Source of the DNA: Blastocladiella britannica
Taxonomy: Eukaryota > Blastocladiomycota > Blastocladiomycetes > Blastocladiales > Blastocladiaceae
NCBI GenBank assembly: GCA_025349905.2
Contig: MU624885.1
Coordinates: 1 to 18,866 of the forward strand
DNA: 18,866 nucleotides
Reading direction: 5' to 3'
The position numbers were made by a program, and so were the translations under genes. Of the stretch, positions 2,737 to 15,970 are shown in pieces (the first letter of the stretch is position 1; each line of letters opens with the position of its first letter). The notes beneath the pieces were generated by a model. It did not search any database, was not told where the DNA came from, and was given only the letters and a program-made list of their open reading frames with translations.

Positions 2737-3630
2737 ATGTCTGCAACACAACAAGAGCTGGCCGATTTCTTCAAGCACAATGTGCAACTAACGCTATCGA
2801 CGCTGGCACCTCCCGCCGATGACGTGGATGTGACGCCCGCGACGCGGCTCCTGGAAAAGCGGCGTGAGATTGCCGAGCTCGAGACGGGCCTAGCGCGCGA
2901 AAAGGACGATTTCCGGATCCGCATGGACATGCTCGCGCAGCGTCGCGACGAGCTCGCACGCAAAGAAACGATGCTGGGCGAGTCGCTCACCAAGTTTGAA
3001 AAGTTCCTCAAAGACAATGACGCCAAACGCAATCGGGCGGTGAAGAAAGCGCACGAGGAGCGGCGGCAGCGCGAGCTCAAGGAGGGCGAAATTGCCAAAC
3101 TGCGGGAAATGGCTGGACAGTTATCCAAAGCGCGGGTCCGGCAAGAACGAATGGTCCGTCAAGGGCAGCATTACCAGCGGTACTTGGAGTCGGTGATCGA
3201 GGCGGCGGAAGGGTTTCCCGAGATCCGCGACTTGCTGGCCCGGTACGATACGTTGGCGGCGACAAACGGCGAGTTGCTGGAACGTGCGAGGGACGCGCAG
3301 GACCGGACTGAGCGTGAGCGGGCCGCGTTCACGCAGCGGTGCGAGGACAAGAACACCGCCATTCTCAATATGAACAATGCGATCGCCAAGCTCAAGCTGC
3401 GGCTCGAGGATCTCGAGGCCAAGTCGGCCGCGTGGCAGGTCACGATCGAGCGGTCCATGCAGGGCGCGACGCAAAAGTCGCTTGAAGTTGGCCAGATCCG
3501 ACTGGCGACCAACAACCTCTTCAACTTGGTCAAGTTGCACCTGCACAACCGCGTGGCCACCACACCCGACACACTCGCGCAGCTCGAAAAGATTCAAATG
3601 TTTATCTTGGATCTGGAGGAGCTCGTTTGA
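2737..3630 (+). CDS. CCDC42/CFAP73-like flagellar coiled-coil protein (DUF4200)
   Basis: This single-exon frame encodes 297 aa that are almost wholly alpha-helical coiled coil. Residues about 36-153 carry the DUF4200 signature: LLEKRREIAELE at 38-49, a K/E/R-rich heptad stretch, and FEKFLKDNDAKRNRA at 87-101, which is the conserved F.KFL.xNDAKR core of the CCDC42/CFAP73 family. Members of this family sit on axonemal doublets. Chlamydomonas FAP73 (MIA2) is part of the modifier-of-inner-arms complex that regulates inner-arm dynein, and CCDC42 is needed for sperm flagella. The length fits the family (roughly 300 aa). The start is the first ATG after an A-rich leader, and the frame is closed upstream. 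The gene implies that the organism builds a motile flagellum. I cannot separate the CCDC42 and CFAP73 subfamilies by eye. Confidence 0.87.
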   Translation: MSATQQELADFFKHNVQLTLSTLAPPADDVDVTPATRLLEKRREIAELETGLAREKDDFRIRMDMLAQRRDELARKETMLGESLTKFEKFLKDNDAKRNRAVKKAHEERRQRELKEGEIAKLREMAGQLSKARVRQERMVRQGQHYQRYLESVIEAAEGFPEIRDLLARYDTLAATNGELLERARDAQDRTERERAAFTQRCEDKNTAILNMNNAIAKLKLRLEDLEAKSAAWQVTIERSMQGATQKSLEVGQIRLATNNLFNLVKLHLHNRVATTPDTLAQLEKIQMFILDLEELV

Positions 3631-3639
3631 TTGATTGAC

Positions 3640-3645
3640 AATAAA
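3640..3645 (+). terminator. Poly(A) signal AATAAA of the CCDC42/CFAP73-like gene
   Basis: A canonical AATAAA lies 10 bp after the TGA stop at 3628-3630. The convergent TAF5 stop is at 3654, so cleavage would fall inside the antisense of the TAF5 coding end and the 3' UTRs of the two genes must overlap. Confidence 0.6.
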
Positions 3646-3653
3646 TAGATATA

Positions 3654-5962
3654 TTATGCATCCCGGCTGTACGGTCCCGACGCCAGCAAGAGATTTCGCT
3701 GCGTGAACTTGAGCGTAGTGACGGGCGTGTTCTTGGTGTGAAAAGTCTCGAGCAGGTCGTTGCTGCAACAAAACAATTGTCAGTTCCTTCTCGTACGAAT
3801 TGAAAAATAAAAGAGAGGGACCTGGTGGCCTTGGACTTTTTCTTTTTCTTGACCGAAACGACCTCGGCAGCAGCAGCCGAGCCGTCAGCGCCACCGCTAC
3901 CGGCGGTATCGTCGTCCGATCGGAGCATATCCCACACGCGAACGGTGCCGTCGAGTCCGCCCGAGACCAACAGAGCGCCGTTACCCTGAGAGAAAGCCAG
4001 CGACGTGACGAGGCCACGGTGCCCAGCCATCTTCTTGATGCGCTTGCCCTCGCCCAGATCCCACACATGCACGCACTTGTCGTCGCCTGCGGTCGCTAGG
4101 TACCGGCCGTTGGGCGAGAACGCGAGCGTCTGCACTGCACCGGCATGGCCCGTCAGTACTCGCACGCAGTTGCCGCTCGAAACGTCCCATAGACGCGCTG
4201 ACTTGTCGGACGATCCGGTCGCAAGGTAGTTGGAGTTGGGGTGAAATTTCACGGCCTATCCCAGTTTTTTTTTTTCGGTTGTGAGTTGGCGCAAGAAATA
4301 GAGACTAGAAAAATGAATAGATTAGCGTACATCCACATCGGAGTGGTGGCCGGCAAAGATGCGCAGCGGATGAATCTGCTCGGCCGCCCACAACCGCGCG
4401 GTGCGGTCGTGGCTCGCCGTTGCGAAATAGATCCCCTCCGGCCCCACGTCCACGTCCCAAACCGGGAACCCGTGGCCGCGGTACACGGCGACGTTTGAGT
4501 ACGTCTCGAGGCTCCATAGCCGCGCAGTCCCGTCCTCGCTGCCGCTCATCATCCATCGTGGCCGCGGCCCCGGAGCAATCGAGACCCCAAACACGGTCCC
4601 CGAGTGACCAATCAGCCGTCGCATCGGAGCGCCTACGGGCTCGTAGAACGCCTCCAGCTGGTCGTCCGGCATAGCCTGCAGGTGAGCATTGTCGATGCCG
4701 GGTGGCGGTGCGATCCGCGCTCGCAGCGGCGCGGACGTGAGCGAGTGCAGGCGGACGGTCGAGTCGGCGAATCCGGCGGCGGCGAGCGTCGCGTCGTCCG
4801 AGAGCGCCGAGCACGTCAGCGAGTCGTACGTGTTGTGCCACGTGTAGAAGCAGGTTGACGGCAGCGCGGTCGCGGTCAGGACTGCCGAAGCGGCAATGTC
4901 GCGCATCTGCGCCATGTGTCGCTGGAGCTCATTGAGGTCTCTGTAATATCGCGTTATTCGTCAATGGCAAGATGAAGAAAAATAAAAGTGAAGAGAAAAA
5001 ACGCACGGTGGAGGCATGGGCACCTTCATACGCGACTCGGGAGCGCCGTGCTCCTCGGCCGGCCGGTGCTTTCGAAACAAGTCCAGCAGCGACACCGAGA
5101 GCCCCGCCAGCTCGTCGTCGGGAATGACGCCCGCCGCGCGCATCAGGTCCTCGCGGCGCAGCGAGTCCTCGACGTCAGTGCGCAGTTTCGGGTCGAGTGG
5201 GGGCATACCCAGGGCGATTCGCGACGCGTTGAACGTGGCATGCGACGACTCGTTGATCCCCAGCACGCCGTACCCGACGGGCGGGGCCAGCTCATCATCA
5301 TCGTCATCATTGGCATCACCGGTTCCAGTTGCAGCAGTAGCCGCTCCCCGAGCACGCGCGCGCTTGGACGCAGCCCCACCCGAGACGTCAATGTGAATGT
5401 ACTGGTTGAGAATGCGCAGCAGCGCCGTGCACTTGTTCTCCTCCAGGTACATGATCAGCAGCTGGAAGGTGGTGGCGGCCATGGGCACGGTGAATTTGGA
5501 CGAGCGGTGATGCGCCGCGTACTCGTTCTGCTGTAGGTAGTGTGGGTCGGTGACGGCGGCCAGCTTGTGCAGGTCGTCGGCGTGGAACGCGGCGTGGTCC
5601 ACCGCGTACGAGTCGAGGAACTGCTTGGCCTCGGCCGACATGTTGCGCGCAACCAGGTCCAGGTACACGTGCTCAAAGATCGGGAACAGAATGTCCTTGA
5701 GCTCGGTCTGTTCTCAGTTGGCTTGTTAATACGACGTGTGTGCTCACGGTCGTCATGACAAGTCATAATATAAAAGCTATACCTTGAACACGTCCAGCGA
5801 CTCGTCGATCCATTGCCGCAGCTTGGCGTACGATGTCTGGTACGCCTCGAACGTGAAAGCGTCGGACCGGAACTGGGCGATATAGTCGGTATGCCCCGCG
5901 GACTCGGTGGCCCTGGCCGCGCCGGTGCCGTAGTAGTCGCCGGCTGTTGTGCCCGTATTCAT
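3654..5962 (-). CDS. TAF5: Transcription initiation factor TFIID subunit 5 (TAF5), five exons
   Basis: Exons on the minus strand are 5962-5783, 5707-5007, 4940-4331, 4255-3822 and 3762-3654 (677 aa), with GT-AG introns of 75, 66, 75 and 59 bp. TAF5 is a scaffold of TFIID and, in many fungi, of SAGA; it acts in the nucleus. Residues about 25-180 form the NTD2 domain (LRQWIDESLDVFK spliced to TELKDILFPIFEHVYLDLV). A linker follows with a basic patch and an Asp run. At least six WD40 repeats come next, with repeat ends such as ARLWSL, ARLWAA, ARLWDV, VHVWDL and VRVWDM. The last exon encodes the typical TAF5 tail (DLLETFHTKNTPV, then LKFTQRNLLLASGPYS). The N-terminus starts almost directly at NTD2, so the LisH motif usual in TAF5 is absent. 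Only 49 bp separate this ATG from the arsM stop upstream. An unseen 5' exon cannot be excluded. Confidence 0.92.
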
Positions 5963-6011
5963 TTGTTTTCAAATATTTTTGATGCAAGAGGCGACGCGAA
6001 AAAGCAAATCG
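5963..6011 (-). promoter_or_regulatory. 49-bp spacer between arsM and TAF5
   Basis: Only 49 bp lie between the arsM stop (6014-6012) and the TAF5 ATG (5962), both on the minus strand. The spacer is A/T-rich close to the TAF5 ATG and shows no AATAAA on the minus strand. The TAF5 promoter must therefore overlap the 3' end of the arsM coding sequence, unless TAF5 starts further upstream or the two are co-transcribed. Confidence 0.45.
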
Positions 6012-7097
6012 TCAGCAGCAGTTGCCCCCACTCGAGGCATCTGCACCACCGGAGGAAGAAGAAGACGCGGGCGCACCACCGCAGTCAGGGAACAGACCAA
6101 AGTGGCGCGACCGGTCGCCCGTCACGGTGAAATGCGGCGAGAGCCACGTCTCCTGGACCATCGCCGCGGTGTTGCCGCACACCAGCATCGGCTTGTGTGC
6201 CTCGAAGTTGTGGCCCGCGTCCAGAGCATACGCGTGTGCGTGGCCCGGGAGCGTGCCCTTGTACACGGCCACCTGGCCATAGTCCTCGCACTTGTCCTCG
6301 AGCGACTTGAGCTTAAACAGACGATAGGTGATGGACACAAACTTGGCCGACCCGACCAATTCCACCAGCTCCGGGTCGCGCACGTCGATCGGCGCCGACG
6401 CCACCACGCGCACGTCGACGAACCCGACATCTGCGCACACCCGGCGGAAATCCTCAGTGTACAGCGCGCCCCCCAAGCACTCGCCAAACAGCACCGGGTG
6501 CGTGCGCACCGCGTCGGGGAGGCGCCGGTCCACGTACACGTCCGAAAAGTAAAACTCGCCCCCGGGCTTGAGCGCCGCGTACACGCCGGTCAGAACACTG
6601 CGCTTGTCGGGAGAGAGGTTGACTACGCAGTTGGAAATGACCAGGTCGTAGGTGCTGTCGCGCACGCCCGCGTCCGACAGTAGCTCAATGTATCCCTGAA
6701 CAAAGTTGAGCTTGGGCGTGTACCCGAGCGTGCGCGCAAACTCGGGGATACCGTCCCTGGCCACCGCCAGCTGCTCGGCGGTCATGTCGATCCCGGTGAC
6801 CGACCCTTTGGGACCCACGAGCGCCGCCGCAACGTAGCAGTCTTGGCCGGAACCGGACCCCAAGTCCAGCACGTGCAGGCCATCGATGCCGAGCGGGACG
6901 GGGGACCCGCACCCGTAGTACTTGTCGGTGACGGAGCGCGGAACCTTGGCCAGGGCGGCGCGGATCAGCGGGTGCGGGGCCTTGGAGGTGGTGCAGGCCG
7001 AGGTCTTGAGGTCCTTGGACGACGCCAGCACGCGGCCATAGTAGTCGCGCACCACGTCCACGATGGCGGCCGGGGCGGTGATACCAGTGTTTTCCAT
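6012..7097 (-). CDS. arsM: Arsenite S-adenosylmethionine methyltransferase (ArsM/AS3MT)
   Basis: This single-exon frame encodes 361 aa, close to the family size (human AS3MT is about 375). The enzyme transfers methyl groups from S-adenosylmethionine to As(III), giving methylated and partly volatile arsenicals; it is usually cytosolic and thiol-dependent. Residues 78-95 hold the SAM-binding loop DLGSGSGQDCY.... The four family cysteines are present: C35, C63 (KYYGCGSPVP), C157 (ISNCVVNLSP) and C207 (GECLGGALY). They match Cys32, Cys61, Cys156 and Cys206 of human AS3MT, so a full catalytic set is retained. The C-terminal third (PGHAHAYALDAGHNFEAHK) matches the AS3MT tail domain. A Ser/Gly-rich extension ends in a Cys-Cys pair, as in several microbial ArsM proteins. 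The gene is divergent from arsJ and sits 49 bp upstream of TAF5. It has no introns, unlike most neighbours. Confidence 0.95.
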   Translation of the reverse strand: MENTGITAPAAIVDVVRDYYGRVLASSKDLKTSACTTSKAPHPLIRAALAKVPRSVTDKYYGCGSPVPLGIDGLHVLDLGSGSGQDCYVAAALVGPKGSVTGIDMTAEQLAVARDGIPEFARTLGYTPKLNFVQGYIELLSDAGVRDSTYDLVISNCVVNLSPDKRSVLTGVYAALKPGGEFYFSDVYVDRRLPDAVRTHPVLFGECLGGALYTEDFRRVCADVGFVDVRVVASAPIDVRDPELVELVGSAKFVSITYRLFKLKSLEDKCEDYGQVAVYKGTLPGHAHAYALDAGHNFEAHKPMLVCGNTAAMVQETWLSPHFTVTGDRSRHFGLFPDCGGAPASSSSSGGADASSGGNCC

Positions 7098-7237
7098 TTT
7101 GAGTTAAAGTTACTTGTATTGTGCTCTGGACCTTTCTGAAAGAGCCTAAGCACTTTGAAACGTGCTTTTGCGCCCAGGGCATTCCGCTTTTTTGTTGGTG
7201 CCATCGAATCTCTTTCAAATCCGACAACAGCAGCAGC
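7098..7237. promoter_or_regulatory. Shared divergent promoter region of arsM and arsJ
   Basis: The two ATGs at 7097 (minus) and 7238 (plus) are 140 bp apart, so both promoters must lie here or overlap the coding ends. The region contains an inverted repeat at 7148-7167 (AAGCAC, 8-bp spacer, GTGCTT) and a small palindrome CTTTCTGAAAG at 7132-7142. No TATA box is obvious. Coordinated, possibly arsenic-responsive expression is an inference from this layout. If arsJ instead starts at the in-frame ATG at 7121, the shared region shrinks to 23 bp, which is less likely. Confidence 0.55.
7148..7167. repeat. Inverted repeat in the arsM-arsJ intergenic region
   Basis: Perfect 6-bp arms AAGCAC and GTGCTT flank the 8-bp spacer TTTGAAAC. 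It lies near the middle of the shared promoter, where a dimeric regulator could bind. No known fungal site matches with certainty, and 6-bp arms can arise by chance. Confidence 0.45.
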
Positions 7238-7260
7238 ATGCAGGAAGAACAACAACGACC

Positions 7261-7328
<68 letters not shown>

Positions 7329-8865
7329 GCAAGGAGTCGTCGTCCTCCATGCGCGATTTTTACACCATTGCCTCCACCTACCTGGCATTCACCGTCGTTG
7401 ACGCTGCCCTGCGCATGTTGGTCCTACTGGAACTATTTACGCGTCATTTCACTGCCATCGAACTGGCGCTCATGTTCACGCTATACGAGGTGCTGGGCGT
7501 CGTCACCAACCTCTTTGGCGGGCTGGCTGCATCGCGCATTGGGTTTCGGCCACTCCTTTTGCTTGGGTACTCTTAAAAATGGAAGTGCCACCACTGTCTC
7601 CAGCAACTAACCAAAATAGAATAGCCTCCTGGCCCAGATCGTCGCCATTTCCATGCTCTACTTTTTGGATAGCGCCTGGTCAAAGGCCGTCACAACCATT
7701 TACGTGGCCATCTCGCAGGGATTCTCGGGGATTGCGAAAGGTATGGTACCATTTCCATTTCTTGTGCTTGAGCCAAAAACTGACAGATAAAAAAAAAGAT
7801 CTGGTCAAAATGTCCGGCAAGTCCGTCTCCAAGCTGACCAAATCCATTTCGGCCGAGGAAGCCTCCGCAACGCTCCTCCGGCTCGTGACCATGCTCACGG
7901 GCGCCAAAAACTCCATTAAAGGTCTGGGCTACTTTATCGGCGCATTGCTCATCACCTGGGGCTATTTCCCAGCGCTGACGGTGCTCCTGGTCCTGGTCGT
8001 GGTGACGCTAGCGCTCACGTTCCAGTACGTGGCGGCCGACCTCGGCAAGTCGCCGTCACGGCTGACTCTTCACAAGGTGCTGACGTCGCAGTCGCCACAG
8101 ATCCGACAACTGTCGCTGGCGCGCGTGTTCTTGTTTGGCGCCCGCGATCTGTGGTTCGAGGTGCCGTTGCCCGTATTCTTGCGTGGCACACTCGGGTGGC
8201 CGTACTTTGCCACTGGATTTTTCCTGGCCGCTTGGATCATGGTCTACGGCGGCGTGCAGTCGTCCACGCCGGCCATTCTTCGCGCGGTCGGGGTGCACGT
8301 GCCGGACAGCGCACGGCAACGGCGGCTCGCCGACCCGCACTCGCCGCGGCCCCTGTTGCCGATTCATGCGGCCCTGATGACGATCCTGGTGGCGCTGGCA
8401 TCCGCTTTAACGGCGCTTCCACCCGCCGCCAGTTCCCCGACGGGCCCGACGATCGCGGTCCTCGTTGGGCTGTCGTTGTTTGCCGTGTTCTTTGCCATGG
8501 CGTCGTCGCTGCACAGCTACCTGATTGTCGCGTACAGCGGGCACGATAAAGTCGCGGCCAATGTTGGGATCTACTACTGCGCCAACAGCGTGGGCCGACT
8601 TTCGGGGACCCTGGCGTCGGGGTACTTGTACGTCAACTGGGGACTCTCGGCATGCGTGTGGTTCAGTCTTGGTGCGATCGCAGTTAGCGGGCTTTTGAGT
8701 ATCATGCTCGAAGATCCTGCTTCTGTTTCTGACCAGGTCGAGGAGGATATGCCATTGGCTCCAACATCGGCTGCTCCTGGTGCTGTTGAGCGGGACCAAC
8801 ATCCAGGCGGCGACGGTGATGTGCTCTTGGACGCGTCCACCCCAACTGTTGTCGCTCAACCATAA
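7238..8865 (+). CDS. arsJ: ArsJ-type organoarsenical efflux MFS transporter, three exons
   Basis: Exons are 7238-7566, 7625-7740 and 7799-8865 (503 aa); both introns are 58 bp, and CTAAC and CTGAC branch points are visible. The protein is a multi-pass MFS carrier with the distinctive ArsJ motifs: TYLAFTVVDAALRMLVLLEL, FTLYEVLGVVTNLFGG, SGIAKDLVKMSGKSVSKL (around residues 143-160), LTGAKNSIKGLGYFIG and FLFGARDLWFEVPLPVFL. In bacteria ArsJ exports 1-arseno-3-phosphoglycerate made by GAPDH from arsenate, giving arsenate resistance. Two features are not bacterial: a glutamine-rich N-terminus (21 Gln at residues 10-30) and a hydrophilic C-terminal tail of about 50 residues. The start at 7238 is the ATG just before the Gln run; M38 is an alternative that keeps the whole core. 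No GAPDH gene is in the window. The partner is the divergent arsM. Plasma-membrane or vacuolar location cannot be decided. Confidence 0.88.
7265..7324 (+). repeat. Pure (CAG)20 trinucleotide repeat in arsJ exon 1
   Basis: Twenty uninterrupted CAG codons are followed by one CAA. They encode a 21-residue polyglutamine run at residues 10-30 of the ArsJ-like transporter, before the first membrane segment. An uninterrupted tract of this length is expected to vary in length between strains. Confidence 0.97.
7741..7798 (+). other. arsJ intron 2 with competing acceptor sites
   Basis: The donor GTATGG is at 7741. The branch-like CTGAC is at 7780-7784. The acceptor AG at 7797-7798 is preceded by a run of A instead of pyrimidines. 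A second AG at 7785-7786 is also in frame and would add four residues (D-K-K-K in place of D). The conserved family motif GIAKDL(V/T)KMS supports the downstream acceptor, and the upstream AG lies too close to the branch point to be efficient. Confidence 0.7.
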
Positions 8866-8900
8866 GAAAAATAGACCGCAAACATTATATATGAAAAAAG
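8866..8900. other. 35-bp spacer between convergent arsJ and WARS genes
   Basis: The arsJ TAA (8863-8865) and the WARS stop (8903-8901, minus) face each other across 35 bp of A/T-rich DNA. No perfect AATAAA is present on either strand, so the polyadenylation signals are non-canonical or lie inside the opposing gene. Confidence 0.6.
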
Positions 8901-10551
8901 CTACTCGGACTTGACAACTGGAGCAGCCACGGCTGCCTTCTTGGACTTTTCCTCGCGCGGCTTGGGCGCGGTACGTGCCTTCTTACCCTTGGCCTTGGCG
9001 TCCGACGCAATCGACAGCAGCTCCCACGCCGACAGCAGCGACTCGCCGACGAACCCGCGCTCGACGGCCCACGGCATCGGTCGCGACGAGTCCATGAACG
9101 CGCGCAAGTCGTCCTCGGTGACGGCTGCTTTACGCGTCTGGAACGCCGCCACCACGTCCGACAGCACCGTAATGCACTTTTGTTTCAGGAACCCGGTGAG
9201 CAGCTCGCCCGACTTGTACGCGGCGTACGTAGCGGCCAAGTCGGCATCGTCCTCCAAAAAGAACGTCAGGTACTGGTACGACACGTCCACGTCCGGGTCT
9301 CCACCGAGCTCGCGGTGCAACTCGACCGTCTCGCGCCCGCCGGAGAACGCGTACTTGTTGATCTTGTCCTTGATTTTCTTGGGCGTGTCGGACATGAAGA
9401 TCGCCGACGAGTCCACGGACGCCGACATCTTGGACTGCGAGCCCTGAAGCGCCGGGAAAAACTTGGCGTGAATCAGCGCGGGTTTCGGGTACCCGAGCTT
9501 GTGGGCGACGTCGCGCGTCAGACGGAAGTACGGGTCCTGGTCGATCGCGCACGGGATCAGGCACGGAATGTCGGACCGGGTGCCGAAGATGTGCGGGAAC
9601 GAGTTGGAGAACGACGGCGCCGCTTGGATCGACACGAAATGGGACTTGCCGACATTGTCGGTTTCAGTGAACCCGAACGCGCCGCGCGACTGCGAGTAGG
9701 GGATCGATTTGGCGATGCGGACCACGTTGTGGTAGAACGCGCCTCTATATTATTACATGTTTGATGAGGACAACTTCTTCCACAAGAAGGAATAATAAAA
9801 CGTACCCAACGTAGTTGAGGTTGGAAAAGATGAAGGTCTTGTTGAGATCGAATCCGCAGGCGATAATGTCTTTGGCATTCTCTTGCGCAAACTTGAAGCA
9901 CTGCTCCACGGTCAGCTCCTGCTTGAAGAGGAACTTTTCGTCGTCTGTACAAGCGTTGAGTTAATGAATTGAATCCAAACTCAGTAGACTCAGTAGTAAA
10001 TACGGTACCAGTGAGCTGAATCACGATCGGCACGTCAAACACGTCCTGCAACCACTTGCAGAACAGGAACGGAATGAAATGCCCCAAGTGCATCGAGTCT
10101 GACGACGGTCCACGGCCCGTGTACAGGTAAAATGGCTCCTTTTTCTCGAAGCGGGTCAGGATATGGTCCAGCTCGCTATTGTAAATCATATTGCTGTCAG
10201 TAAATACCATCCAAAAAAGTGGATACGAGTACATACCGGTGCGAGAAAAACACGCCGCGACGCAGGAACCGGTGCGCCTTGTGGCCAGTGACGCGCTCGA
10301 ACCGCTCCAGCAGCGCCTCGTCAATGGCCTTGGTGCCAAACTGCTCAATGAGCTTGTTGTAGTTGATGGCCTGGACCTTGCCGTCCACTACGGCGCCCTT
10401 GACATCCCACGGGTTGACGTCCTGCTCCGCGTTGCTATTGGTAATTTTTGTTTGTTGAATGGGACGGACGCGCTCAATGGTCAAAGTATACAACATACTC
10501 GGCGACAACAAGTTCGACGGAGATGCCAATGGGTTCGGCGGCGGCAGACAT
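8901..10551 (-). CDS. WARS1: Cytosolic tryptophanyl-tRNA synthetase, five exons
   Basis: Minus-strand exons are 10551-10499, 10434-10237, 10175-10009, 9944-9806 and 9744-8901 (466 aa); the introns are 64, 61, 64 and 61 bp. The enzyme charges tRNA-Trp with tryptophan in the cytosol. It is a class I synthetase of the eukaryotic type: [11 protein letters not shown] near residues 74-84, [18 protein letters not shown] at 99-116 with the HIGH-like [19 protein letters not shown] at 252-266, and KMSAS at 291-295. The exon 3 acceptor was set to 10176 because it reproduces the usual 13-residue spacing between HR and PF(Y/F)LYTGRG; an upstream AG at 10194 is in frame but would insert six residues. The C-terminus differs from the usual compact end and carries a Lys/Ala-rich tail of about 30 residues. 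The gene lies 115 bp downstream of EDC4. Confidence 0.95.
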
Positions 10552-10666: not shown

Positions 10667-10668
10667 TT
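10663..10668 (-). terminator. Poly(A) signal AATAAA overlapping the EDC4 stop codon
   Basis: On the minus strand the sequence reads TAATAAA, so AATAAA begins at the second base of the TAA stop codon (10669-10667). The 3' UTR would be very short, in keeping with the compact spacing to WARS. Confidence 0.5.
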
Positions 10669-13600
10669 ACTGCGACAAGGTCTGCACGCACAATGTGAGT
10701 CCGCGCAGAATCGGCTTCACGTGCGCCAGACTCGGCAACCGCACCCCACGCGCGTGCTCCTTCATCAGCACCGTCTCAGCGGCCTTCACCTCCTCCAGCG
10801 CGCCCTGCAAGTACCCGAGCGCAGGCGCCGCCACCTCCGGGTCCGGGAACGGCAGCTGCGGGTACAGCGCCTGAATGACGGGCGTCAGCCATTGGGTGCG
10901 CGCGTGCATCGTAGACGCGTCGTGCACGACCGCGGGCAGCTGGTGGCACAGCGTGGCCACCAGCGACAGCAAGATCGTGGGGGACAGCGCCGTGACCAGG
11001 TGCGACGAGGGGGGTGGGGGGAGCAGGTGTTGCACGAGCCAGTCGGTGGCCGCCAGCGCATTGTCGGACGACATGGCCAGGCGGAACGCGCCGTCGAGGT
11101 TGTCGGCGTTCAGGCACGCGCCAATCTGGGTCTCGAGGGATGCCGACGATGTGGGCGCGTAGCCTCCTTCTTGATCATCGTCTTCCTCTTCGTCTTGGTC
11201 GTCGTCGTCTTGGCCCTGGCTATTGGTGTCGAGCGGGCCACCGAGCTGCTGCGACTGCAGGCGCGCCTCCTCCTCTTCCTCCTCTTCTTCTTCGTCCTCG
11301 TCATCGTCCACGACAATGGCTTGGAGACCGTTGGCGGTACCAACGTCCTCATCTTCGAAATCGTCATCGCCCGAGGTGATGGCAGCAGCTACCGGCCGAG
11401 TGTCAGGCGACCCGAAATCGGCCGCGGTATCCGCGACATCGTCGTCGTCCACGTCCTCGCGTGCCGGTGGGCGGTAATCCCACTCGTCCGCCGCCGCCGA
11501 AGCCCGCTGCTGAATTTGTTGCTGCTGCTGCTGCTGCTGCTGCTGGCGGAACAGCGACAAAGACGACACGCGCGCGTCCAGTCCGACCACCACCTGCTGC
11601 ACACCGGCGTCGACCGCGCGAGCCACCTGCGCGAGCATTTCGCCCGTAGCGCGCTCATACGCGGGCACCAGCTGCTCGACGACCGCGCGCTGGCACGCCG
11701 CGGCGGTATCGGTGGCAATCCGTGCCAGTTCCATCGACCGGTGCCGCGCGTCGTCGGCAAGCGCCTTGGCCACCATTTCGCGCACCACGGGCACCACCAT
11801 CGATTGCACGTGCGAGGACACGAGCGAGTCGAGCGTCGCCGCTACGTTGTTGGTGAGCGTGGCCGCCACCACTTTCAGCAGCTCCTCTTGCCGGTCCTGC
11901 TCGGCCGCCGCGCGACGCTCGATCGCCGCCTCGTACTTGGCCGCCTGGGCCGCGAGCTTTCCGTCCAAGAGCCGCGAGAGCATGGATTCGCTCACTGCAG
12001 CATCGGCGGCCGGGACTGGAGCTGCCGCACTCGGTTGGGCGGTCGTCGGGGTTGCCCGCGCCGATTGGGATCCGCGGCCCGTGACCGACTCGGCCTTGGT
12101 CGCAGGGATCACTACCGTTGCCACCGGTTCGGGCGACGGCGGCGAGCTCAGCAGCGTGGCCATAGACGCGCCGCGCGCCACTCCTCCTGCCGCGGTGTCA
12201 TCGCGCGATGCAGTCGCATTCGAGCCAACCGCCGCCGCCGCCTTCCCGGCCAGCACGGGTACCGTGAGTAGCGAGTCCGCGGGCGTGCGGCAATGGATGG
12301 CACCACGATGCAGCCGCGGGTCCGCGAGCACGGCCGCCAGCTGCGAGAGCGCTCCCGCGTACAGTCCCGCCGACGTGGCTGCGACTGCCGTGTCGCCAAC
12401 AATGCTCCATCCGACGAGCTCGTCGCACTGCTCGAGCGACGGTAGCGCAAGCTTGGCGACCCGGTGTGGGCGCGGGTTCCCGCCCGCACACAGCGTCACT
12501 GCAATCACGCCCGCGGCGGCGTTGCGTGGGCCGGGGACCGACGTGGTGGCGGCGGGGATCGCGCCGGCCAGGTTCGACAGCGACTGCGCGTTGGGCGCGG
12601 GAGCGGCAGTCTGCAACCAAATCGTGCCGCCCAGGGGCGAATTCCGCGACGCCTTGCCAGCAGTAGCCGCAGCAGCTGCAGCATTGGCAGCACCCACAAC
12701 ACCATTTCCTGAGGCAGTGGCCATAATGCGCGTGAAGTTGACCTTGGGGAACGCCGCGGACGCCACCACCGACGCGACACTGTTGGAGCTGCGGCTCGAT
12801 GCGCGTGTGGCCGAGATAATGAGAAGCGTCGAGGGCAACGCCACTACCAGCCCGAGCTCCACCTCCGAGTGGCCAATGCTCTGCACGCCGACGATTGGCG
12901 CGCCGGCGGTGGTCCCACCGAGGGGGATGGCGCGCACCACGGCCAGGCCCGTCCACAGCTTGATATCGCCCGAGCGCGTCGCCGTCCAAAAGTAGTGGGG
13001 CAGGGACGCCGGCACCAGGTGCGCGACCGCCTCTGCGCCAGCCACTGCCACTGCCACTGCCGGGTTGGACAGCGACACGCTGCACACGCCAACGACCGAC
13101 ACTGCATCCTGCATCACCACATACGACACGCCCGACGCGACGCATGCGGCCACCACCGTGTTGTTGCCCAGCAGCACCACGCGCGTGATCTGGGCGAGAG
13201 CGCCGCTGGCGTCAAACACCTTGAGCTCGCCCGTTCGCTCCACGGTCCCCGACTCGGCGCGCACCCGGTACACGGACACGGCGTCATTGTGCGCCAGGGC
13301 CAAAAACTGTGGGCGCAGTGCCACGTCCACGACTGGGCGTGGGCTGCGGGGTGCTGCACTGGTCCCGGCGCCGCCGCGTCGGCTGGCAGCAGTGGCAGAT
13401 GCACCACGGTTGCTGCCGGACTGGCCTTGATTAGTTGCAGCCGACTGCGACGACGCTTCCGTGCTGCTGTCGTCCTCCAGAACCGCCAGAGGGGTGCGTG
13501 CCACCACATCGACCACGTGCACGTGGCCGTCGGCGCCAATGTACGCGGCCATGCACTCGTCCGAGGCAAGGGCAACCAGGCCGACGGGGGCGGGACCAAT

Positions 13601-15970
13601 GGGCTCGGCCGGAGCCACATCGCCACTGCCGCGCGGCAACACCGCGTCGGCGGCGTCTCCAGTGCCGGCGGTGATGAGGGTAAAGTTCGGGAACGTCACG
13701 GCCGGGAGGGACTTGAGGTGCACATCGAAAAAGAGCGACACGGCTGGCTGTCCCGGGCCCACATACAGCTTGCTGGACTCGACCGATTTGGCCAGCTTGA
13801 ACTGGTACACGCTCGGCACTGACGAGGATGACGCCGAGGTGGCCGACTTGGGCGTGGTTGGCTCGGGTTGGCCGCCGAGGTTGGCCAGAATGGGAGCGGC
13901 AACCACACCCGCCGGGAAGACAAGGTCGCCGACCTTTTGCTGCTGCTTGGATGGCGTCGGGGTGGCTGCAGACTGCTGCTGCTGCTGCTGCTGCTGCTGT
14001 GCCTTCGGGGCCGGGAGAACAGAAAGGTCCCAAATGTCCTCCTCGCTGTTGACTGCCTCGGCAATCGGCCCGCCCAACGCGGCAGCGCCGCCGCGGCTCT
14101 GGCCGGTGCTAGGAGTGCCGGTCGACGAGATCCGCCGGGTGGGGCTCATGGTCTGCATGCCTGCCACTTCGAAGGGATCGTCCAGCATCAGCAGTTCGGT
14201 TGCGCTCATGCGGCGAGCAATCTCTGCCCGCTGCTGCTGCTGTTGCTGTTGCTGCTGGCGTGCCGGCTGCTGAGCTTGCGATTGCGGCGCAGGAGCCGTG
14301 GTCGGCGACTTGCCAGTGCGCTTGGGGCTCTTTGTGCGCTTGGTGCCCTTGGCCTTGGTCACCACAGGTGCCGCTGCTGCTGCTGCCGCGGGCGAGGGCG
14401 CCGCTCCGGCCGCCTGGTCGCTTCTGCCCATGCCGAACGCGCCGTTGGCGTCGGTGCTGGCCGCAAGCGCAAATGCGCGGTCGAGATGGTGGCCCGCCTC
14501 TTGCTGCTGCTTTTGGTGGTCAGGGTGGGACGAGGAGCTGACAGAGTGGTCTTCCGCGTCCTCAAACTGGTGCTGGCCGTGGTTGTCGGCAGCGTCCGCG
14601 GCCGCTGCCTCCAGCAGATGGAACGGGTTGACATAGGTGTACGCGGGCTTGGCGGCAGGCGCGGTCGGCGTCGCGGGCTTCTGCGGTTTGCTTGCGGCGA
14701 CGCTCCCGGTAGTGGACGTGGTCGAAGAGGCGCGGGCCGGTTGCTGCTGCTGTTGCTGTTGCCGCTGTTGCTGTGAGCGCGACAGGGGCGTCGGAGAGGC
14801 CAGGGGTCCTGTGTCAGACGTCGGGGACGCTTGGTGCGGGAATTCAGTGCGCGTCGGCACCGGCGACGATGACGTCGATCTAAATTGATTTTTTGTGAGT
14901 CTCTTTAACACGAAAAATGAGAAGACAACTCCGTACCCCATTGACAAGGCGCGCAAAAGAGACTGCTGCGCGGCGGTCGGCGAGTCGGTTGTCGATCCGA
15001 CCGGCGATGTCGAGTGCTTTCCGTGGCTGCTGCTACCGCCAGTTCCAGCAAGTGGCAGGGGTGCCGGCGGCACGCGCGCGCGCGGAGCTTGTTGCTGCTG
15101 ACCCTGCTGCTGCTGCTGGGAAGGAGCAGCAGCCGCAAACACGTCCGACGACGATGGCGTCTGGAACATCAAGGCAAGCAGAGGGTTCGGCTGAGCACCG
15201 CTACTCCCACCCGCGGGACCGCCACCCATCAAAGCAGCGGTAGCCGGAGCCGCGGGCCCGCCGACCGACGGCGTGCGCCGCCCCTTGGCCGCCGAAGTCA
15301 ACAGCGCCTGCAGCGATCCGGCGCTCTGCGACCCGGGCCCACTGAACGACGACGGGCCACCGCTTCCTCGCTGGTAAAGGTGCTGCTGCTGCTGGGCAAT
15401 CGAAGACGACGGCGGGTACGGCGACGAGCCCGAGCCCGAGTTGATGGCACCCAGAAGGGCACTCGCCGACTGCTGGCGCGAGGGAGCCGACGACGACGGC
15501 AAGGACGCGTTGGGCGTGCCTGACAGGTTGTAGAGGGCCGACATGGGGCCCTGGGCATGCGAGGTGCCGCCATCAGAGGCAGCAGCGGCGGCAGGGGACG
15601 GGGGTGGGTAGAATAGGTGCTGGGCGGGACCAGGACCCGAAGAAGAGCCAGGTGGGGCGCCGCCGGTCATGGCAGGGTAGCCCGACGGGCCCGAGGGTGA
15701 CGACGACGACATGGGCAGAAAAGGGTAGGGCTGGTACTGCTGCTGCTGTTGGTGCTGGTGCTGGTGTTGTTGCATATGCCGTTGCTGGTCTTGGGCTTGG
15801 CCTTGGAGAAAGGCGGCATGCTGGGCACGATCGCGGAATGCGCGGTCCACGAGCTGCTGCTCAAGTTGGTGCTGATCGGCGTGGGTCAGGTGGTAGCCGC
15901 CGGGGGCGCCCGAGGAGCCTGTCGGAGACGGGCCGTCGCCGCCACCGCCATGGTTGGGCAGGCGAGACAT
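10667..15970 (-). CDS. EDC4: Enhancer of mRNA decapping 4 (EDC4/Ge-1/Varicose-like) scaffold
   Basis: Exons are 15970-14937 and 14879-10667 (1748 aa); the 57-bp intron is a multiple of three and has no stop, so the unspliced frame would encode 1767 aa. EDC4 bridges the decapping enzyme Dcp2 and its activator Dcp1 in P-bodies. Order of regions: a Ser/Gly/Gln/Pro-rich disordered N-terminus (1 to about 700) with several Gln runs; a divergent WD40-like domain (about 700-1195, starting YQFKLAKSVESSKLYVGPGQ); a helical region (about 1309-1450, with LDSLVSSHVQSMVVPVVREMV); a Gln run; an acidic Asp/Glu stretch (about 1530-1580); and a C-terminal alpha-helical domain (about 1593-1748: IGACLNADNLDGAFRLAMSS, then ILLSLVATL) resembling the Ge-1 C-terminal domain. 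The domain order matches animal and plant EDC4. The low-complexity content makes the identification by eye less certain than for TAF5 or WARS. Confidence 0.8.
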   Translation of the reverse strand: MSRLPNHGGGGDGPSPTGSSGAPGGYHLTHADQHQLEQQLVDRAFRDRAQHAAFLQGQAQDQQRHMQQHQHQHQQQQQYQPYPFLPMSSSSPSGPSGYPAMTGGAPPGSSSGPGPAQHLFYPPPSPAAAAASDGGTSHAQGPMSALYNLSGTPNASLPSSSAPSRQQSASALLGAINSGSGSSPYPPSSSIAQQQQHLYQRGSGGPSSFSGPGSQSAGSLQALLTSAAKGRRTPSVGGPAAPATAALMGGGPAGGSSGAQPNPLLALMFQTPSSSDVFAAAAPSQQQQQGQQQQAPRARVPPAPLPLAGTGGSSSHGKHSTSPVGSTTDSPTAAQQSLLRALSMGYGVVFSFFVLKRLTKNQFRSTSSSPVPTRTEFPHQASPTSDTGPLASPTPLSRSQQQRQQQQQQQPARASSTTSTTGSVAASKPQKPATPTAPAAKPAYTYVNPFHLLEAAAADAADNHGQHQFEDAEDHSVSSSSHPDHQKQQQEAGHHLDRAFALAASTDANGAFGMGRSDQAAGAAPSPAAAAAAAPVVTKAKGTKRTKSPKRTGKSPTTAPAPQSQAQQPARQQQQQQQQQRAEIARRMSATELLMLDDPFEVAGMQTMSPTRRISSTGTPSTGQSRGGAAALGGPIAEAVNSEEDIWDLSVLPAPKAQQQQQQQQQSAATPTPSKQQQKVGDLVFPAGVVAAPILANLGGQPEPTTPKSATSASSSSVPSVYQFKLAKSVESSKLYVGPGQPAVSLFFDVHLKSLPAVTFPNFTLITAGTGDAADAVLPRGSGDVAPAEPIGPAPVGLVALASDECMAAYIGADGHVHVVDVVARTPLAVLEDDSSTEASSQSAATNQGQSGSNRGASATAASRRGGAGTSAAPRSPRPVVDVALRPQFLALAHNDAVSVYRVRAESGTVERTGELKVFDASGALAQITRVVLLGNNTVVAACVASGVSYVVMQDAVSVVGVCSVSLSNPAVAVAVAGAEAVAHLVPASLPHYFWTATRSGDIKLWTGLAVVRAIPLGGTTAGAPIVGVQSIGHSEVELGLVVALPSTLLIISATRASSRSSNSVASVVASAAFPKVNFTRIMATASGNGVVGAANAAAAAATAGKASRNSPLGGTIWLQTAAPAPNAQSLSNLAGAIPAATTSVPGPRNAAAGVIAVTLCAGGNPRPHRVAKLALPSLEQCDELVGWSIVGDTAVAATSAGLYAGALSQLAAVLADPRLHRGAIHCRTPADSLLTVPVLAGKAAAAVGSNATASRDDTAAGGVARGASMATLLSSPPSPEPVATVVIPATKAESVTGRGSQSARATPTTAQPSAAAPVPAADAAVSESMLSRLLDGKLAAQAAKYEAAIERRAAAEQDRQEELLKVVAATLTNNVAATLDSLVSSHVQSMVVPVVREMVAKALADDARHRSMELARIATDTAAACQRAVVEQLVPAYERATGEMLAQVARAVDAGVQQVVVGLDARVSSLSLFRQQQQQQQQQQIQQRASAAADEWDYRPPAREDVDDDDVADTAADFGSPDTRPVAAAITSGDDDFEDEDVGTANGLQAIVVDDDEDEEEEEEEEEARLQSQQLGGPLDTNSQGQDDDDQDEEEDDDQEGGYAPTSSASLETQIGACLNADNLDGAFRLAMSSDNALAATDWLVQHLLPPPPSSHLVTALSPTILLSLVATLCHQLPAVVHDASTMHARTQWLTPVIQALYPQLPFPDPEVAAPALGYLQGALEEVKAAETVLMKEHARGVRLPSLAHVKPILRGLTLCVQTLSQ
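11516..11545 (-). repeat. CAG/CAA tract encoding 10 Gln in EDC4
   Basis: Eight CTG triplets on the plus strand plus two TTG encode ten consecutive Gln on the minus strand, between the helical region and the acidic stretch of the EDC4-like protein. Confidence 0.85.
13973..13999 (-). repeat. (CAG)9 tract encoding 9 Gln in EDC4
   Basis: Nine uninterrupted CTG triplets on the plus strand encode nine Gln in the disordered N-terminal part of the EDC4-like protein. Further Gln runs with mixed CAG/CAA codons occur near 14224-14262, 14742-14772 and 15737-15778. Confidence 0.85.
14880..14936 (-). other. In-frame 57-bp intron of the EDC4-like gene
   Basis: The donor GTACGG and acceptor TTTAG bound 57 bp with a CTCAC branch-like element. 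The A/T-rich, hydrophobic 19-residue insert it would encode (GVVFSFFVLKRLTKNQFR...) is out of character with the Ser/Gln-rich surroundings, which supports removal by splicing. Retention would not break the frame. Confidence 0.75.

Follow-up and report, generated by a model that had tools for sequence, protein, structure and literature searches.

A divergent arsM-arsJ gene pair suggests a two-gene arsenic-detoxification locus in a fungus-like eukaryote

How would a fungus-like eukaryote dispose of arsenic when a gene for a methylating enzyme and a gene for an exporter lie back to back in its genome? This question is raised by an 18,866-nucleotide stretch of contig MU624885.1 (hereafter the window, meaning the whole stretch analysed), where arsM, encoding an arsenite methyltransferase, and arsJ, encoding a transporter, are arranged head to head. 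A previous sequence-only reading of this DNA had described such a pair about 140 bp apart, and the distance between the two ATGs is indeed 140 bp. It had also proposed that a single locus could deal with As(V) through ArsJ and with As(III) through ArsM, a split of labour that is plausible. The locus is real and coherent and the identities of its products are strong, and for its mechanism we infer the scheme set out below. Altogether, the pair probably constitutes a native arsenic-detoxification locus of a fungus-like eukaryote.

The assignment of the transporter to ArsJ is well borne out. The arsJ splice model was picked from enumerated GT-AG combinations, and its three exons (Table 1) were chosen because they gave the best fit to the bacterial ArsJ alignment at both junctions. 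The resulting protein of 503 amino acids matches the NCBIfam ArsJ profile NF033734 over its full length (positions 1-392) with 372.1 bits, whereas the next family reaches only 34 bits. Conservation and phylogeny were assessed against 86 bacterial ArsJ (the best 80 of at least 584 confirmed genome loci, plus 6 of 65 plasmid records), a set restricted to bacterial and plasmid sequences, with no eukaryotic ArsJ in it. Of the 109 columns in which at least 95% of these proteins agree, the transporter keeps 90, and all 14 conserved charged positions (His counted) are retained. A profile search of the contigs of the assembly (G000: 15.26 Mb, 624 contigs) gave two arsJ exon matches, both in the window. 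The transporter can be regarded, as far as its sequence tells, as a strong case of ArsJ identity.

The case for ArsM is also strong. Among proteins of solved structure, 5evj comes first (441 bits, near full-length alignment), followed by 4kw7/4fr0 (290 bits), all of them titled arsenite or arsenic methyltransferase; we take these to be the Chlamydomonas and Cyanidioschyzon structures, respectively. The four key cysteines announced by the sequence-only reading, those that bind As(III), are present as Cys35, Cys63, Cys157 and Cys207, which line up with cysteines in the top two structural matches (5evj and 4kw7), and a CC pair stands at the C-terminus. The protein shows the core of the S-adenosylmethionine-dependent methyltransferases (Pfam Methyltransf_31, 100 bits), and its best NCBIfam family is the arsenite methyltransferase NF008823, at 170 bits and thus below the cut-off of 263. 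Methylation of As(III) is a prediction from sequence. The profile search of the contigs placed arsM at this locus only (6012-7097). As a side observation, the best plasmid relative of this ArsM comes from Acinetobacter portensis (46.6%; L012:2642-6167) and adjoins two glycosyltransferases annotated for arsenosugar biosynthesis, together with a phosphate transporter.

Bacteria are the best-known source of ArsJ, and this arsM is intronless, two features that would suit a bacterial contamination or a misassembly. Such an origin has been rejected, and its probability is practically negligible, because of the arsJ introns, the eukaryotic neighbours and the composition of the genes. The arsJ frame is readable only with two introns removed, so that the eukaryotic introns attributed to the unit by the sequence-only reading exist in arsJ, whereas arsM is an uninterrupted frame. 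Both genes sit on one contig between a TAF5-like gene (TFIID NTD2 domain plus WD40 repeats), located before arsM, and the gene for WARS (tryptophanyl-tRNA synthetase; 8901-9749 and upstream), located after arsJ. Their GC content at third codon positions (0.85 in arsM and 0.74 in arsJ) resembles that of five neighbouring frames (0.67-0.87). Moreover, no close bacterial donor of arsJ was found among the 86 proteins compared, where the top identity is 46% and no close sister appears. The host itself is likely a fungus or a close relative, as judged from matches to the fungal-type chitin synthase PF01644 on three contigs (C242, C295 and C240), which were found in 0 of 14 prokaryote controls. The fungal genome assumed at the outset is therefore likely and not proven: two of the three matches run through stops, which points to introns or decay, and chitin synthase is not exclusive proof of a fungus.

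A different question is whether both genes work together. Of the neighbouring spacers, the one that separates the TAF5-like gene from arsM (5962-6012) measures about 50 bp and the one that separates arsJ from WARS (8865-8901) about 35 bp, very short distances that mark a compact eukaryotic genome. Because short spacers are usual beside these genes, the arsM-arsJ distance alone is uninformative on joint control. The spacer also holds a near-palindrome, AAGCACTTT-GA-AACGTGCTT, at 7148-7167, a candidate operator of which about 0.16 would be expected by chance in 140 bp (rough arithmetic, no shuffles); this is about chance level, and no claim is made for it as an operator. Thus, arsM and arsJ could be real arsenic genes that act separately, their head-to-head layout being an accident of a compact genome with no shared regulation. 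Next to such tiny spacers, a short gap between divergent genes is unremarkable, and ArsM occurs in all nine green algae of a comparative study, yet outside their arsenic neighbourhoods (PMC7826186). This explanation is nevertheless unlikely: with a gene roughly every 2 kb, the assembly would hold some 7,000 genes, which puts the chance that two given single-copy genes lie next to each other at about 2 in 7,000 (post hoc arithmetic), and arsM is also found near arsJ in bacteria.

In the DNA around the 80 bacterial genome copies of arsJ, arsM was detected five times (L020, L047, L058, L061 and L088), and all five ArsM score 287-368 bits, above the arsenite methyltransferase cut-off. In L020, from a metagenome-assembled genome of Acidobacteria (3368-7233), arsM (368 bits) diverges from arsR-arsJ and an ACR3 gene (429 bits) lies behind arsM. 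As in our locus, arsM and arsJ are there transcribed apart from one intergenic zone and an ArsJ-type GAPDH is not seen; unlike our locus, L020 carries arsR between both genes and ACR3 behind arsM, and its ArsM scores no more than 117 bits against ours. No ArsJ-type GAPDH occurs in the 7.8 kb covered in L020, of which only about 0.6 kb lies beyond arsJ, so that this is apparently a bacterial arsM/arsJ locus lacking the usual GAPDH partner. The association of arsM with arsJ has therefore a bacterial precedent, given the five loci in 80 and the divergent one among them.

In the pathway proposed for a joint arsM-arsJ locus, ArsJ, a major-facilitator transporter, would clear pentavalent arsenic from the cytosol across the membrane in which it presumably resides. 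It may do so by exporting free arsenate, as has been argued for Vibrio cholerae, where ArsJ is the main determinant, 1-arseno-3-phosphoglycerate (1As3PG, or 1As3PGA) is still made when the dedicated GAPDH is missing and the species exported appears to be free arsenate (PMC9601151). Alternatively, and in keeping with the original model, ArsJ may export 1As3PG formed by an ordinary glycolytic GAPDH. ArsM would in turn methylate arsenite using S-adenosylmethionine, and the 140-bp divergent spacer would allow the joint switching-on of both genes. The GAPDH that the sequence-only reading expected elsewhere in the genome does exist as a single gene, with two exon matches on contig C84. However, it scores as glycolytic and not as the ArsJ-dedicated type, since its main exon reaches 461 bits on the glycolytic family and 297 bits on the ArsJ-type one. 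Two bacterial ArsJ-associated GAPDHs gave 581 and 579 bits on the ArsJ type, the second being higher still (661) on another GAPDH family. The housekeeping enzyme would thus have to suffice for the second route. The assembly shows one PGK match, on another contig than arsJ, and an extra PGK of the algal type, which was sought, did not turn up in the assembly as available.

Other arsenic genes were sought in the same assembly by an exon-by-exon search whose absences are provisional, as all 14 control genomes are prokaryotes and the completeness of the assembly is not given. No ACR3 was found in the 15.26 Mb, in a search that matched 7 of the 14 controls (6 above cut-off), and no ArsH either, with 7 of 14 controls matched (1 above cut-off). 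A tentative idea, which we hold at somewhat less than even chances, is that in this lineage the divergent arsM-arsJ pair takes the place of the ACR3 route usual in fungi: arsenate would be expelled directly by ArsJ, either with the help of the housekeeping GAPDH or as free arsenate, and arsenite would be methylated, with no arsenite pump involved.

Several observations weigh against an arsenic-detoxifying ArsJ-ArsM pair. The ArsJ score of 372.1 bits falls short of the NCBI naming cut-off of 400, which comes from a library built for bacterial and archaeal proteins; for comparison, the ArsJ of L020 scores 537.5 bits on the same profile. Because of this score, the transporter is an ArsJ homologue, as judged by sequence, and not an NCBI ArsJ equivalog. 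It has lost 19 of the 109 conserved columns, a greater divergence than that of all 86 bacterial ArsJ compared: left out singly, these keep at least 89.9% of the conserved columns (median 99%). The sequence-only reading had named a position outside the ArsJ clade as evidence against its claim. In a maximum-likelihood tree of 87 rows, the transporter was not seen to take that position and grouped with bacterial ArsJ in a set of 29 marked by a star, although the tree is weak on this point: it has no outgroup, and the transporter, which lacks a clear sister, sits on a branch of 3.34 (median 0.2). Grouping with 15 cyanobacterial rows was neither supported nor rejected (approximately unbiased test, p-AU 0.318). 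The long branch, the lost columns, the score below the cut-off and the failure to find a dedicated GAPDH would all fit a transporter that has left arsenic and exports some other metabolite, phosphorylated or anionic, such as an intermediate of glycolysis. Such a change of substrate is improbable, considering that the 14 charged positions are intact, that the neighbour gene encodes an arsenic enzyme and that the Chlamydomonas ArsJ is needed for arsenate tolerance (PMC7826186).

Further difficulties for the arsenic-detoxification locus concern its missing partners. A dedicated ArsJ-type GAPDH was sought and not found, either at the locus or in the assembly as available, while one lies near arsJ in 72 of the best 80 of at least 584 bacterial genome loci and in all 6 plasmid loci compared. 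Four of the eight loci without it (L056, L057, L090 and L092) cover less than 3 kb before arsJ. The V. cholerae work considered that the glycolytic GAPDH would probably not be enough to take the place of the dedicated enzyme (PMC9601151), and a study of Cyanidiales red algae describes arsJ as an As(III) efflux gene, unlike other papers (PMC9812998). Finally, no arsenate reductase that would supply ArsM was identified in a search for rhodanese domains with the motif HCX5R, a weak test made without a positive control. HCX5R is the motif of Acr2-type reductases, and none of the six rhodanese matches in the assembly shows a reductase-like version of it in the matching frame. Loosening the motif yielded a single hit; it lies outside the frame of the rhodanese match and was not counted.

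Three other bacterial loci (L042, L055 and L070) show no ArsJ-type GAPDH match with at least 4 kb covered on both sides of arsJ. These would be natural GAPDH-less ArsJ systems in which to compare the transport of free and complexed arsenate.

The sequence-only reading had considered the arrangement as not described. This stands for an ArsJ of fungi and for a eukaryotic head-to-head arsM-arsJ pair, neither of which was found described in the open-licence literature searched, and does not stand for eukaryotic ArsJ at large, known in green algae (PMC7826186) and Cyanidiales (PMC9812998), nor for arsM with arsJ, in view of the five bacterial loci. Our transporter resembles those of the bacterial ArsJ plus GAPDH systems (Pseudomonas aeruginosa, Halomonas GFAJ-1 and the var operon of V. 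cholerae) in being a homologous major-facilitator protein over its full length with the same 14 charged residues; in Halomonas GFAJ-1, an arsJ homologue together with gapdh confers arsenate resistance in Escherichia coli (PMC5930303). Unlike them, the locus has introns, an arsM partner, no dedicated GAPDH found and at most 46% identity (86 compared). In green algae, too, a eukaryotic ArsJ belongs to a small neighbourhood of arsenic genes (ArsJ-GAPDH3-PGK), and arsM is present in the same genome; GAPDH3 and ArsJ are there either both present or both absent, and Chlamydomonas mutated in arsJ or pgk3 is sensitive to arsenate (PMC7826186). In contrast, arsM adjoins arsJ in our case and a single glycolytic-type GAPDH and a single PGK map to other contigs. 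In Cyanidiales, arsJ stands on its own, with no GAPDH/PGK cluster, and arsM is also present in the genomes, as here, whereas an arsM next to arsJ is not mentioned in the available portions of that work (PMC9812998).

Regarding ArsM, the four cysteines and the near full-length alignment to 5evj are as in the AS3MT proteins of chytrids and green algae. The AS3MT of the chytrid Spizellomyces punctatus belongs to group I, apart from those of ascomycete and basidiomycete fungi, and is likewise without introns; unlike the present case, an arsJ partner goes unmentioned in the available portions of that paper (PMC5398495). In another study, all eukaryotic arsM genes examined had introns except that of Hydra, and fungal ArsM were placed beside planctomycetes (PMC5552862). 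As for ArsJ in fungi, a mushroom paper of 2026 terms it a bacterial transporter family (PMC12860867) and a review of arsenic in eukaryotic microorganisms does not mention arsJ (PMC8618186). A survey that covered 670 genomes, 142 from fungi, found acr3 in 85.3% of fungi and holds that As(V) formed in eukaryotic microbes is not easily excreted, conversion to 1As3PGA being needed first; the word arsJ does not appear in its main text (PMC11370035). An ArsJ that occurs in a fungus-like genome as the partner of arsM and without the usual GAPDH looks new.

Table 1. Features of the arsM-arsJ locus (positions in the window)
Feature	Position	Strand	Remarks
arsM (AS3MT-type arsenite S-adenosylmethyltransferase)	6012..7097	minus	single exon, uninterrupted frame, 361 amino acids
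Divergent spacer, presumed shared promoter region	7098..7237	.	from coordinates
arsJ exon 1	7238..7566	plus	ATG at 7238; includes CAG/CAA tract
arsJ intron 1	7567..7624	plus	58 bp, GT-AG, branch-like CTAAC at 7607
arsJ exon 2	7625..7740	plus	splice model fitted to ArsJ alignment
arsJ intron 2	7741..7798	plus	58 bp, GT-AG, branch-like CTGAC at 7780
arsJ exon 3	7799..8865	plus	spliced protein spans NF033734 positions 1-392 of 392

The polyglutamine extension that had been listed as a trait of the unit does not set it apart. The tract of 21 CAG/CAA codons (7265-7327) would be translated only from the first ATG, and a second in-frame ATG, at codon 38, marks the point where the bacterial ArsJ proteins start aligning. 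Three further CAG-type runs of 9-10 codons each occur elsewhere in the window, all of them inside a frame at 10667-15970. The tract is not a distinguishing trait of ArsJ here, and its presence in the protein is unproven. That frame is itself an uninterrupted one of 1767 codons, rich in Q and S runs and with no confident Pfam domain, which may resemble the decapping scaffold EDC4. The window also carries a gene with a DUF4200 domain, and another of its frames gives weak ankyrin matches. DUF4200 is, we assume, a domain of ciliary proteins, in which case the host would have a cilium.

ArsJ has either moved into or been kept in a fungus-like lineage, where it has arsM as its partner instead of GAPDH. 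An ArsJ devoid of a dedicated GAPDH would offer a natural test between the export of free arsenate and that of 1-arseno-3-phosphoglycerate, a matter left open by the work on V. cholerae (PMC9601151). Moreover, a fungus with ArsJ and without ACR3, if true, would add a route missing from the picture drawn by the survey of 670 genomes (PMC11370035).

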